NCBI RefSeq assembly: GCF_006715765.1
Contig: NZ_VFNV01000001.1
Coordinates: 2,108,001 to 2,172,000, forward strand
DNA: 64,000 nt
Source of the DNA: Rarobacter incanus
Lineage (GTDB): Bacteria; Actinomycetota; Actinomycetes; Actinomycetales; Cellulomonadaceae
Direction: 5' to 3'
Shown: positions 33,503 through 39,994 of the stretch, in pieces
How the letters are laid out: every line of letters begins with the position of its first letter
How positions within the stretch are numbered: position 1 is the first letter of the stretch
Notes under the pieces: generated by a model
Seen by the model: the letters and a program-made list of their open reading frames with translations, nothing else
The model's database searches: none
Told to the model about the DNA's origin: nothing
Position numbers and translations under genes: made by a program

Positions 33503-35979
<2,477 letters not shown>

Positions 35980-36218
35980 TGACGCGGACGTGCCAGGTCA
36001 TGATGAGCGCGTTTATGGTCACAATCGCGGCGAAGATCGCTATCGCGCCGGTTCCCGTGACGATCTTGAGAACGAACACGACTAGCACCGCCGCCACCAG
36101 CATGGCCGCCTCGCCTGCCAGGATGATCTTGAGGCGGCGGGAGTCCGCGGCGGCGTAGTCGGTCCGCTCCGTCGGCGCCAGTGGTGCGGCCGCGCCTACC
36201 TGCTGGTCGTCCATCAAT

Positions 36219-37769
36219 TCAGTCCCTAAACGTTTCGATGCGGGCACCAAGCTCTTCCAGGCGTTGGGCGAGCTGTTCGTAGCCGCGGGCAATGATGTCC
36301 ACGTTCCGCAACACCGATTCGCCGCGCGCGGCCAGCATCGCTAGCAGGATGACGACGGCGGGGCGCAGCGCCGGGGGGCACACTACCTCGGAACCGACCC
36401 AGTGGGTGGGGCCGGTGACATCGAGCCGGTGAGCGTCCAGCAGCCGCACATCGGCACCGAGTCGGGTCAGATCGGTGAGGTGGATGGCGCGGTTCTCGTA
36501 TACCCAGTCGTGGATGAGAGTGTTGCCGGTCGCGCATGCCGCGATCACGACGAAGAATGGCAGGTTGTCGATGTTCAGCCCTGGGAAGGGCATGGGGTGG
36601 ATCTTGTCGTGCGGGGCAACCAATTCGCTGGGGTAGACGGTGACGTCGACCAGCCGCGTTCGCCCGTTGTGCGACAGGTATTCCGGGGTCAGGGTGTACT
36701 TCAGGTGCATTTCGGCGAGCGTCGCGAGTTCGATTTCCATGAACTCGATCGGCACGCGCGTCACCGTGATCTCGGAGTTTGTGACTATTCCTGCCGTGAG
36801 TAGGCTCATCGCCTCCACGGGGTCTTCCGAAACCACGTACTCAACATCCTCGTTGAATGACGGCTTTCCAGTGATCCGCAGCGTCGTGGTGCCTATGCCT
36901 TCGATGCCAACACCCAAGAGCTCGAGGTAGAAGCACAGGTCCTGGACCATGTAGTTCGGGCTGGCGTTGCGAATGACCGTGACCCCATCATGGCGGGCGG
37001 CGGCCATGATCGCGTTTTCGGTGACCGTGTCACCGCGTTCGGTCAAGATGATCTGCAGATCGCGTTGAGTGACGGGATGCGCGACGGCGTGGTAGCTCCC
37101 GGACGTGGCCGTCACCTCGAGTCCGAACGGTCGCAACGCGATGAGGTGCGGTTCGATTGTGCGGGTCCCCAGGTCGCAGCCGCCGGCGTAGGGGAGTTCA
37201 AACTCGTCCAAACGGGCAAGGAGCGGTCCAAAGAACATGATGACTGACCGGGTCCGCCGGGCCGCATCTGCGTCGATTGTGGACATGTCGAGGTCGTCGG
37301 GGACCTTGATGGTCACGTCGCGTTCGTCTTCTGACCACTCGACGCTGGCGCCGATCGATCGCAGAACCGCGATGATTCGCTCGACCTCAACGATGCGCGC
37401 GACGTTGCGTAGCGTCGTCGTGCCGCGGTTGAGCAGCGACGCGCACAGCAGCGCGACCGCGGCATTCTTGGACGAGTTCACCGATATCGTGCCGCTGAGT
37501 TGCTCCCCTCCGAAAACTCGCAGATGCTGATGCTTGGACGGCCCGAAGCTGATCAGTTCCGAGTCGAGGGCGCTGGAGATCCGCGACAGCATTTCAAGGG
37601 TGACGTTCTGCGAGCCCTGCTCGATGCGTGCGACCGCGCTTTGACTGGTCCCGAGCTTGTCGGCGAGTTGAGATTGCGTCAGGCCACGATGTTGGCGCGC
37701 GGCGCGCACCAGGGAACCGACTTGGACGAGGTCGTTCGCAGTGGTTTCAACAGCAGTCATAGCAACCAC
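36219..37769 (-). CDS. murA: HTH-fused UDP-N-acetylglucosamine 1-carboxyvinyltransferase (MurA-like)
   Basis: 516 residues. Residues ~1-76 are an XRE helix-turn-helix (LVRAARQHRGLTQSQLADKL, GTSQSAVARIEQGSQ); ~80-510 are the EPSP-synthase fold of MurA, which adds enolpyruvate to UDP-GlcNAc. SSKNAAVALLCASLL keeps the Lys-Asn pair and YAGGCDLGTRTIEPH keeps the loop Cys, so catalysis looks possible. GTG 37769 has GAGGGG six bases upstream; ATG 37760 is the alternative. The fusion occurs in other actinobacteria as I recall; whether the HTH binds DNA is not known to me. Two palindromes lie in the upstream region. Confidence 0.85.
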   Translation of the reverse strand: MVAMTAVETTANDLVQVGSLVRAARQHRGLTQSQLADKLGTSQSAVARIEQGSQNVTLEMLSRISSALDSELISFGPSKHQHLRVFGGEQLSGTISVNSSKNAAVALLCASLLNRGTTTLRNVARIVEVERIIAVLRSIGASVEWSEDERDVTIKVPDDLDMSTIDADAARRTRSVIMFFGPLLARLDEFELPYAGGCDLGTRTIEPHLIALRPFGLEVTATSGSYHAVAHPVTQRDLQIILTERGDTVTENAIMAAARHDGVTVIRNASPNYMVQDLCFYLELLGVGIEGIGTTTLRITGKPSFNEDVEYVVSEDPVEAMSLLTAGIVTNSEITVTRVPIEFMEIELATLAEMHLKYTLTPEYLSHNGRTRLVDVTVYPSELVAPHDKIHPMPFPGLNIDNLPFFVVIAACATGNTLIHDWVYENRAIHLTDLTRLGADVRLLDAHRLDVTGPTHWVGSEVVCPPALRPAVVILLAMLAARGESVLRNVDIIARGYEQLAQRLEELGARIETFRD

Positions 37770-37779
37770 GATATACCCC

Positions 37780-37789
37780 TCATGAGGTA
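37780..37789. promoter_or_regulatory. Palindrome CCTCATGAGG over the murA ribosome site
   Basis: A perfect 10-bp palindrome that includes part of the purine-rich ribosome site before GTG 37769. It could be a repressor site for the HTH domain of the protein, by inference. Confidence 0.35.
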
Positions 37790-37834: not shown

Positions 37835-37853
37835 CACGATGTGGAACATCATG
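37835..37853. promoter_or_regulatory. Operator-like inverted repeat upstream of HTH-MurA
   Basis: CACGATGT-GGA-ACATCATG: arms match at 7 of 8 positions, with a perfect GATGT/ACATC core, about 65 bp before the start codon. Size and symmetry fit a site for an XRE dimer. The rest of 37770-38050 shows no gene I trust. Confidence 0.45.
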
Positions 37854-38050
37854 TGTGAGATATGGGGAGGTGCTTCGCGTGGCTAGAACGCCCCGGACAA
37901 AACGCCAAACGCGTAAACCCGCGGCAAACCACGCGGCGCGGCAGTGCAAGCGCCGCAGCGACCGCCGCGACTTCGGAAAGCCTCCGCATGGCAGGTCGCG
38001 CAGATGCGTCGCCGATGGAGATCCTTGCGGGGCCCTGCGGCCTTGGCGCC

Positions 38051-38869: not shown

Positions 38870-39994
38870 GTGAGCAATGAAGTTGAGATTGGACGCGGCA
38901 AGCGCGGTCGGCGCGCATATTCCTTCGATGATGTGGCGGTGGTGCCATCGCGGCGCACACGTGACCCGCGGGACGTGTCCACCGGTTGGCAGATAGACGC
39001 GTACCACTTCGATACCCCAATTATTGCGGCACCGATGGATTCGGTGATGTCACCGGCCACCGCGGTCCAATTTGGCCGGCTCGGCGGCCTGGGAGTGCTG
39101 GATCTTGAGGGCCTGTGGACACGCTACGAAGATCCCACGGATCAACTCGCCGAAATCGCACAACTGCCTGCAACCGCCGCTACCGCGCGGATGCAGGAAC
39201 TATACGAGGCGCCCATCGACGCCGACCTCATAACTCAGCGGTTGCATGAAATCCGTGAGGCGGGCGTGACGGTGGCGGGCGCACTGACCCCCGCCAGGAC
39301 GCAGCAGTTCTACAAGACCGTTGTGGATGCCGGCGTCGATCTCTTCGTCATTCGCGGTACCACGGTCTCGGCGGAACACGTATCGGGCAACGCGGAACCA
39401 CTGAACCTCAAGCGCTTCATTTATGAGCTCGATGTGCCCGTCATTGTTGGGGGCGCCGCAACCTACACCGCGGCCCTGCACCTCATGCGCACCGGCGCCG
39501 CGGGTGTTCTGGTTGGATTTGGCGGGGGAGCGGCGCACACCACGCGCGTATCGCTCGGCATCCACGCCCCCATGGCATCGGCAGTGGCGGATGTTGCCGC
39601 GGCTCGGCGCGATTATTTGGACGAGTCCGGCGGGCGGTATGTCCATGTCATCGCCGACGGCGCGGTTTCCCGTTCGGGGGACATGGTCAAGGCCATTGCT
39701 TGCGGCGCGGACGCAGTCATGATCGGGGCGGGGCTCGCCCGCGCCACCGAGGCCCCGGGCGCCGGCTGGCACTGGGGGCCAGAGGCGCACCACGGCCAGC
39801 TGCCGCGCGGCGAGCGAGTGCACGTCGGAACGGTCGGGTCGCTGGAAGAAATACTCTTCGGTCCGTCCTCGCGTGCCGACGGAACGATGAATATCGTCGG
39901 CGCCTTGCGCAGGGCAATGGCGACGACGGGTTACTCCGACGTCAAGGAATTCCAGCGCGTGGAAGTCGTTGTCTCGCCGTATCTGCCGGCGTAG
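38870..39994 (+). CDS. guaB3: GuaB3 family IMP dehydrogenase-related protein
   Basis: 374 residues. An IMPDH/GMP-reductase barrel (IIAAPMDSVMSPATAVQFGR, VIVGGAATYTAALHLMRTG, YVHVIADGAVSRSGDMVKAI) without CBS domains. The loop that holds the catalytic Cys in IMPDH (GPGSICTTR in the neighbouring GuaB) reads GFGGGAAHTTR here, so the Cys is absent, as I recall for other actinobacterial GuaB3 proteins. A classical IMPDH reaction is therefore unlikely; a reductase or regulatory role is possible. ptsI follows 13 bp later. Confidence 0.88.
   Translation: MSNEVEIGRGKRGRRAYSFDDVAVVPSRRTRDPRDVSTGWQIDAYHFDTPIIAAPMDSVMSPATAVQFGRLGGLGVLDLEGLWTRYEDPTDQLAEIAQLPATAATARMQELYEAPIDADLITQRLHEIREAGVTVAGALTPARTQQFYKTVVDAGVDLFVIRGTTVSAEHVSGNAEPLNLKRFIYELDVPVIVGGAATYTAALHLMRTGAAGVLVGFGGGAAHTTRVSLGIHAPMASAVADVAAARRDYLDESGGRYVHVIADGAVSRSGDMVKAIACGADAVMIGAGLARATEAPGAGWHWGPEAHHGQLPRGERVHVGTVGSLEEILFGPSSRADGTMNIVGALRRAMATTGYSDVKEFQRVEVVVSPYLPA

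Follow-up and report, generated by a model that had tools for sequence, protein, structure and literature searches.

Within the window, the 64,000-nucleotide stretch of the Rarobacter incanus genome that was analysed here, the minus strand carries a gene in which an XRE-type helix-turn-helix (HTH) DNA-binding domain is fused to a MurA-type enolpyruvyl transferase. The genome is one closed contig of 2.49 Mb (99.98% complete), and its closest named relative is Rarobacter faecitabidus, with 90% protein identity. The features of the locus are listed below.

36219-37760, minus strand: coding sequence of the HTH-MurA fusion, 513 amino acids, stop codon at 36219-36221, the sole MurA of the genome
37554-37721, minus strand: XRE/HTH_3 DNA-binding domain, residues 14-69, with the recognition helix region T38-N52 (TSQSAVARIEQGSQN)
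36228-37523, minus strand: MurA (enolpyruvyl transferase) domain, residues 80-511, with K98, N99, R171, C195, R200, D313, D398, R424, R466 and R492
37768-37773, minus strand: predicted -10 box TATCGT, 7 nt before the ATG, the geometry seen in 138 of 147 relatives
37772-37789, minus strand: degenerate promoter-proximal operator (putative), TACCTCATGAGGGGTATA, 8 of 12 core bases
37845-37862, minus strand: distal operator (putative) at -102, TATCTCACACATGATGTT, 10 of 12 core bases, 3 mismatches of 14

The fusion gene and its neighbourhood

The initial annotation had seen an XRE HTH in front of a MurA domain that keeps the Lys-Asn pair and the loop cysteine, and the profile searches agreed with it. 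In Pfam, HTH_3 matched residues 18-68 (E = 4e-15; 55.9 bits against a gathering cut-off of 23), followed by EPSP_synthase at residues 84-501 (E = 1.5e-45), and K98-N99 and C195 aligned to K22-N23 and C115 of E. coli MurA. In NCBIfam, the protein passed the PRK09369 MurA subfamily model NF006873 (318 bits, cut-off 297) and scored 309 bits with the murA equivalog TIGR01072, under its cut-off of 392.7; the aroA model gave only 81 bits, which places the fusion nearer to MurA than to AroA. Identity to MurA was about 30-35%. The AlphaFold2 model (mean pLDDT 88) had an HTH bundle with helices at residues 8-24, 29-36, 40-47 and 55-65, a low-confidence joint at residues 71-74 and a MurA fold, and the top Foldseek matches were all MurA structures. 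The same two-domain protein was found across Actinomycetia with 62-90% identity, which means that the two domains are not joined by accident.

The start codon had been placed at GTG 37769, but this codon overlaps the predicted -10 box, so ATG 37760 is most likely the start. The fusion gene of R. faecitabidus begins with the identical ATGACTGCT.

No neighbouring gene or operon was conserved beside the fusion gene beyond close relatives. A small ORF with two hydrophobic stretches (window 35930-36214, minus strand) begins 4 nt past the fusion stop codon, and a converging pseudouridine-synthase-like gene (35026-35979, plus strand) has its end inside this ORF; no clear match to the ORF was found beside the fusion gene in relatives. 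IMP-dehydrogenase-family genes lie on both sides of the locus (33515-35029 and 38870-39994, both plus strand); R. faecitabidus has the same layout, as do about eight further loci near Cellulomonas.

A tree built from MurA domains put all fusions together, with 100/100 support for the group and a very long stem, although its joining point was unsure. Members of this group lacking the HTH were not found, and the fusion was absent from about 180 genomes of the other classes of the phylum. Judged from these comparisons, the fusion arose once, in the class Actinomycetia only.

The operator and the recognition helix

A palindrome, TATCTCA-N4-TGAGATA, was found just upstream of the fusion gene throughout the class. 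Its core, ATCTCA-N4-TGAGAT, was matched at 10 or more of 12 bases in 73 of 81 upstream regions (50 of them perfect) and with a spacing of 4 only, and no match of this quality occurred in 81 dinucleotide-shuffled control regions. In two cases both half-sites had changed symmetrically (TATCGCA..TGCGATA in locus L039 and TAACTCA..TGAGTTA in genome G062), as expected for the site of a dimer. In 138 of 147 relatives the 18-bp palindrome ends in the first two bases of a TANNNT -10 box, and in 134 of the 147 a start codon comes 6-8 nt past this box, so the fusion gene apparently has a promoter of leaderless geometry with a putative operator overlapping its -10 box. Because of this position, we propose repression and not activation. 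Several lineages had two operators, 63-64 or 73-74 bp apart (64 bp in Cellulomonas; 63 bp in Mycetocola, Curtobacterium and Schumannella; 74 bp in Cellulosimicrobium), and this spacing by whole helical turns suggests that binding is cooperative, with both sites on the same face of the DNA.

The HTH domain was as well conserved as the enzyme domain (mean conservation 0.82 for the HTH, 0.83 for the MurA domain and 0.72 for the linker). Loss of its DNA-contact residues on alignment had been named as an observation that would speak against DNA binding, and the alignment gave the opposite picture, with Q29, Q40, S41, R45, E47, G49, Q51 and N52 invariant in 114/114 fusions. All 146 proteins with an intact recognition helix had a site of at least 9/12 upstream. 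In genomes G076 and G032, which belong to one genus and are both fusion-only, the helix was rewritten (MTGTDIEQIEAGEHD and MTEQDIEQIESGQHD replace TSQSAVARIEQGSQN) and the operator was gone (6-7/12, chance level), with the catalytic residues retained. The association of intact helix and operator had a Fisher p of 0.0003, a value that overstates it since the co-loss in these two genomes is a single evolutionary event.

We also scanned whole genomes for further sites. Exact sites numbered 24 at fusion promoters and 3 elsewhere in 44 fusion-positive genomes, and 4 in 16 fusion-negative genomes; the reversed-pattern control gave 0. When up to 2 mismatches of 14 were allowed, each of 11/11 Nocardioidaceae genomes and R. 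faecitabidus had exactly one site, and it was upstream of the fusion gene. A wider regulon was considered and rejected, as scans of 60 and 15 genomes gave no recurrent second site. Control of canonical murA by the same operator was likewise rejected, because none of 40 canonical murA upstream regions reached 9 matches. The suggestion that the protein regulates envelope genes was therefore not upheld, the operator being essentially confined to the promoter of the fusion gene itself. Taken together, the single operator per genome and the co-loss of helix and operator point to single-target autorepression.

In Rarobacter itself the sites are weaker. The upstream palindrome CCTCATGAGG (37778-37787) is perfect in itself but was absent upstream of all 80 relatives, so it was rejected as the operator in that form; the sequence can be reread as part of a degenerate, promoter-proximal version of the family operator. 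The distal operator lies 73 bp (6.95 helical turns) from the proximal one, and R. faecitabidus has an 11/12 distal operator at the same place. A scan of the Rarobacter genome allowing 3 mismatches gave no more matches than the control. With a proximal operator of 8/12, a distal one with 3 of 14 mismatches and a scan at control level, autoregulation may be weaker in Rarobacter than in its relatives.

It is also conceivable, if improbable in our judgement, that the protein is an active MurA whose HTH serves nucleoid tethering, protein contact or folding and that the palindrome is bound by another regulator. XRE domains can mediate protein contacts too, and binding of the palindrome by the fusion's own HTH is deduced from sequence. 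However, conservation of the HTH equals that of the MurA domain, with no variation at its contact residues, the operator accompanied the intact helix in 146/146 cases and was missing from the two genomes in which the helix is wholly degenerate, and one site per genome argues against tethering of the nucleoid.

Catalytic residues and the standing of the fusion as sole MurA

Residues of the enzyme domain were compared in E. coli MurA numbering, with a reference sequence of 419 aa. K22, N23, R91, C115, R120, D231, D305, R331 and R371 were invariant in 114/114 fusions and R397 was kept in 113/114, with one gap. All catalytic and PEP residues tested in the window protein (K22, N23, R91, C115, R120, D305, R331, R371 and R397) were present, and this set was invariant even in fusions that have a second MurA in the genome. 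Position 115 was Asp in 21 and Cys in 19 of 40 canonical actinobacterial MurA sequences (L086-L095 and L136-L165) and always Cys in the fusion; that is, HTH-MurA always retains the cysteine targeted by fosfomycin, and about half of the sampled canonical enzymes carry Asp.

The uridine loop was different. Its canonical residues P161, S162, V163, G164, E188 and E190 are not kept in the fusion, which has R242, G243, D244, T245, N269 and M271 instead, all invariant among fusions. The remodelled loop comprises residues 241-245 and 269-271 (window 36948-37040). Since these residues differ from canonical MurA, the substrate affinity could differ, and the remodelling could tune affinity or serve sensing.

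The genome of Rarobacter has two EPSP-family genes, AroA (C1:971183-972397) and the fusion, and a search with the murA model to E = 10 gave no further MurA in this closed genome. In a census of 296 genomes of the class, the matches had a bimodal spread, with E of 1e-145 or better for fusions and of 1e-54 or weaker for the rest. We then ran the murA model on 78 genomes, 75 fusion-positive ones and three canonical-only controls, and by the TIGR01072 cut-off canonical MurA was present in 31/75 and absent in 44/75 of the fusion-positive genomes. The 44 fusion-only genomes span 7 families and include closed genomes. Ten named genomes, which partly overlap these 44, were fusion-only too: R. faecitabidus, Serinibacter arcticus, a Pseudoclavibacter, four Aeromicrobium, Mumia quercus and two Nocardioides. 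A MurB match was found in 25/25 fusion-only genomes tested, 23 of them above its cut-off. Since MurB is kept and no other MurA candidate is present in fusion-only genomes, the fusion must supply the MurB substrate there, a conclusion reached by elimination with no alternative seen; enolpyruvyl transfer to UDP-GlcNAc is thereby implied, and as the only MurA in the Rarobacter genome the enzyme must be active.

The fusion was present in every Streptomyces genome tested, and Streptomyces and some other genomes have canonical MurA alongside it. In Paraoerskovia sediminicola (L013; G399:C1:2515043-2516346), the canonical murA is spread over two overlapping frames next to an intact fusion, and it is possibly in the process of loss. 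The fusion gene itself was split in two genomes, L202 (G358:C1:2095000-2096800) and L224 (G032:C1:1261200-1263500), by single-base frameshifts near residues 380-395. Programmed frameshifting was rejected, as the frameshifts are at different places and sequencing errors or mutations are likelier; for G032 a sequencing error is likely because the fusion is the only MurA there.

An enolpyruvyl transferase of another pathway, using an acceptor other than UDP-GlcNAc, would account for residues that are fixed in canonical MurA and fixed differently here (P161 to R, S162 to G, E188 to N, E190 to M, T304 to I and D369 to P) and for the changes at V163 and G164, and NikO (PDB 4fqd) is a MurA relative with a changed substrate. 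We hold this to be very improbable, since fusion-only genomes keep MurB and have no other MurA candidate and since the fold and the catalytic set agree with MurA. The earlier idea of a paralogue turned regulator, that is, a MurA without catalysis that now senses metabolites for envelope genes, could draw on the canonical MurA of Streptomyces and some other genomes, the score under the equivalog cut-off and the very long branch, but it is scarcely credible when a second, HTH-free murA is absent from this genome and 43 more genomes are fusion-only, closed ones included, when ten catalytic and PEP-site residues are invariant also beside a second MurA, and when no regulon was found past the fusion's own promoter.

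Proposed autorepression and its relation to known systems

Our preferred reading, to which we give a probability of roughly 0.8, is that the fusion is a working sole MurA whose XRE domain binds the palindrome at its own promoter and represses its own transcription; very probably, an essential enzyme here switches off its own gene. In the proposed mechanism, the fusion would act as a UDP-GlcNAc enolpyruvyl transferase, the sole MurA in Rarobacter, and the XRE domain at its N-terminus would bind TATCTCA-N4-TGAGATA, probably as a dimer, over the -10 box of its leaderless promoter. The bound protein would block RNA polymerase, so that peptidoglycan synthesis would have a first committed enzyme that limits its own transcription, and two operators 6 or 7 helical turns apart, as in several lineages including Rarobacter, would allow cooperative binding. 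If DNA binding were coupled to the ligand state (e.g. the Cys-PEP/UDP-MurNAc bound form), repression would track precursor supply, and the fusion may sense UDP-GlcNAc or PEP. We infer DNA binding, repression as the sign of regulation, dimerisation and ligand coupling from sequence comparison. The proposal of a trigger enzyme was strengthened in that the sole MurA must be active and a cognate operator of the HTH is conserved, and it was not supported in the part that concerned envelope genes; for both halves of the definition, an active enzyme and control of transcription, the backing is comparative throughout.

With MurA the fusion has in common the fold, the PEP and catalytic residues, the loop cysteine and, by elimination, the place in the peptidoglycan pathway, and it differs by the extra N-terminal XRE domain, the remodelled uridine loop and the conserved operator at its own promoter. 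The orthologue in S. coelicolor is probably SCO5998, because of its name MurA2 and because every Streptomyces genome tested has the fusion. In excerpts of PMC12161575, MurA2 is one of two MurAs and a predicted DmdR1 site lies near SCO5998, and an excerpt of PMC8346170 describes the gene as monocistronic with a SigB-dependent promoter; the excerpts of both papers list it as MurA or a putative transferase and mention neither an HTH nor an operator. These further inputs beside the gene in S. coelicolor are a point against the preferred reading. Unlike Rarobacter, its host also retains canonical MurA.

Enzymes with a fused DNA-binding domain are known as trigger enzymes, such as PutA, BirA and NadR (PMC8249747). 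PutA, like the fusion as proposed here, is a single-target regulator at its own promoter region (PMC8249747). These enzymes belong to proline, biotin and NAD metabolism, whereas the fusion, with its XRE domain and apparently leaderless promoter, acts where cell-wall synthesis takes its first committed step. Flux through MurA is also controlled by CwlM, which activates MurA in mycobacteria (PMC4946905), and by PrkA/ReoM in Listeria (PMC8959180, PMC7286690), but that control is post-translational and needs a partner, whereas the fusion would exert its control on transcription, through a domain of the enzyme itself. In the open-licence PMC literature we found no published description of the HTH of this MurA or of its operator. 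The principle of a fused enzyme-regulator is thus known, and we found no description of MurA as one of them, nor of whole families that have the fusion as their sole MurA.

We consider it about an even bet that the whole class carries a self-repressing MurA with a single genomic site and precursor sensing via the active site, and that several families including Nocardioidaceae rely on the fusion as their only MurA, with built-in feedback, undescribed before, setting precursor synthesis. The known controls of MurA are proteolytic or partner-dependent. Here the essential enzyme itself carries the DNA-binding domain and each genome has one operator, so that removing a single domain or a single site would put the feedback loop to the test. 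HTH-MurA is the sole MurA and not a spare copy in Nocardioidaceae, Rarobacter and others, which corrects an easy assumption.
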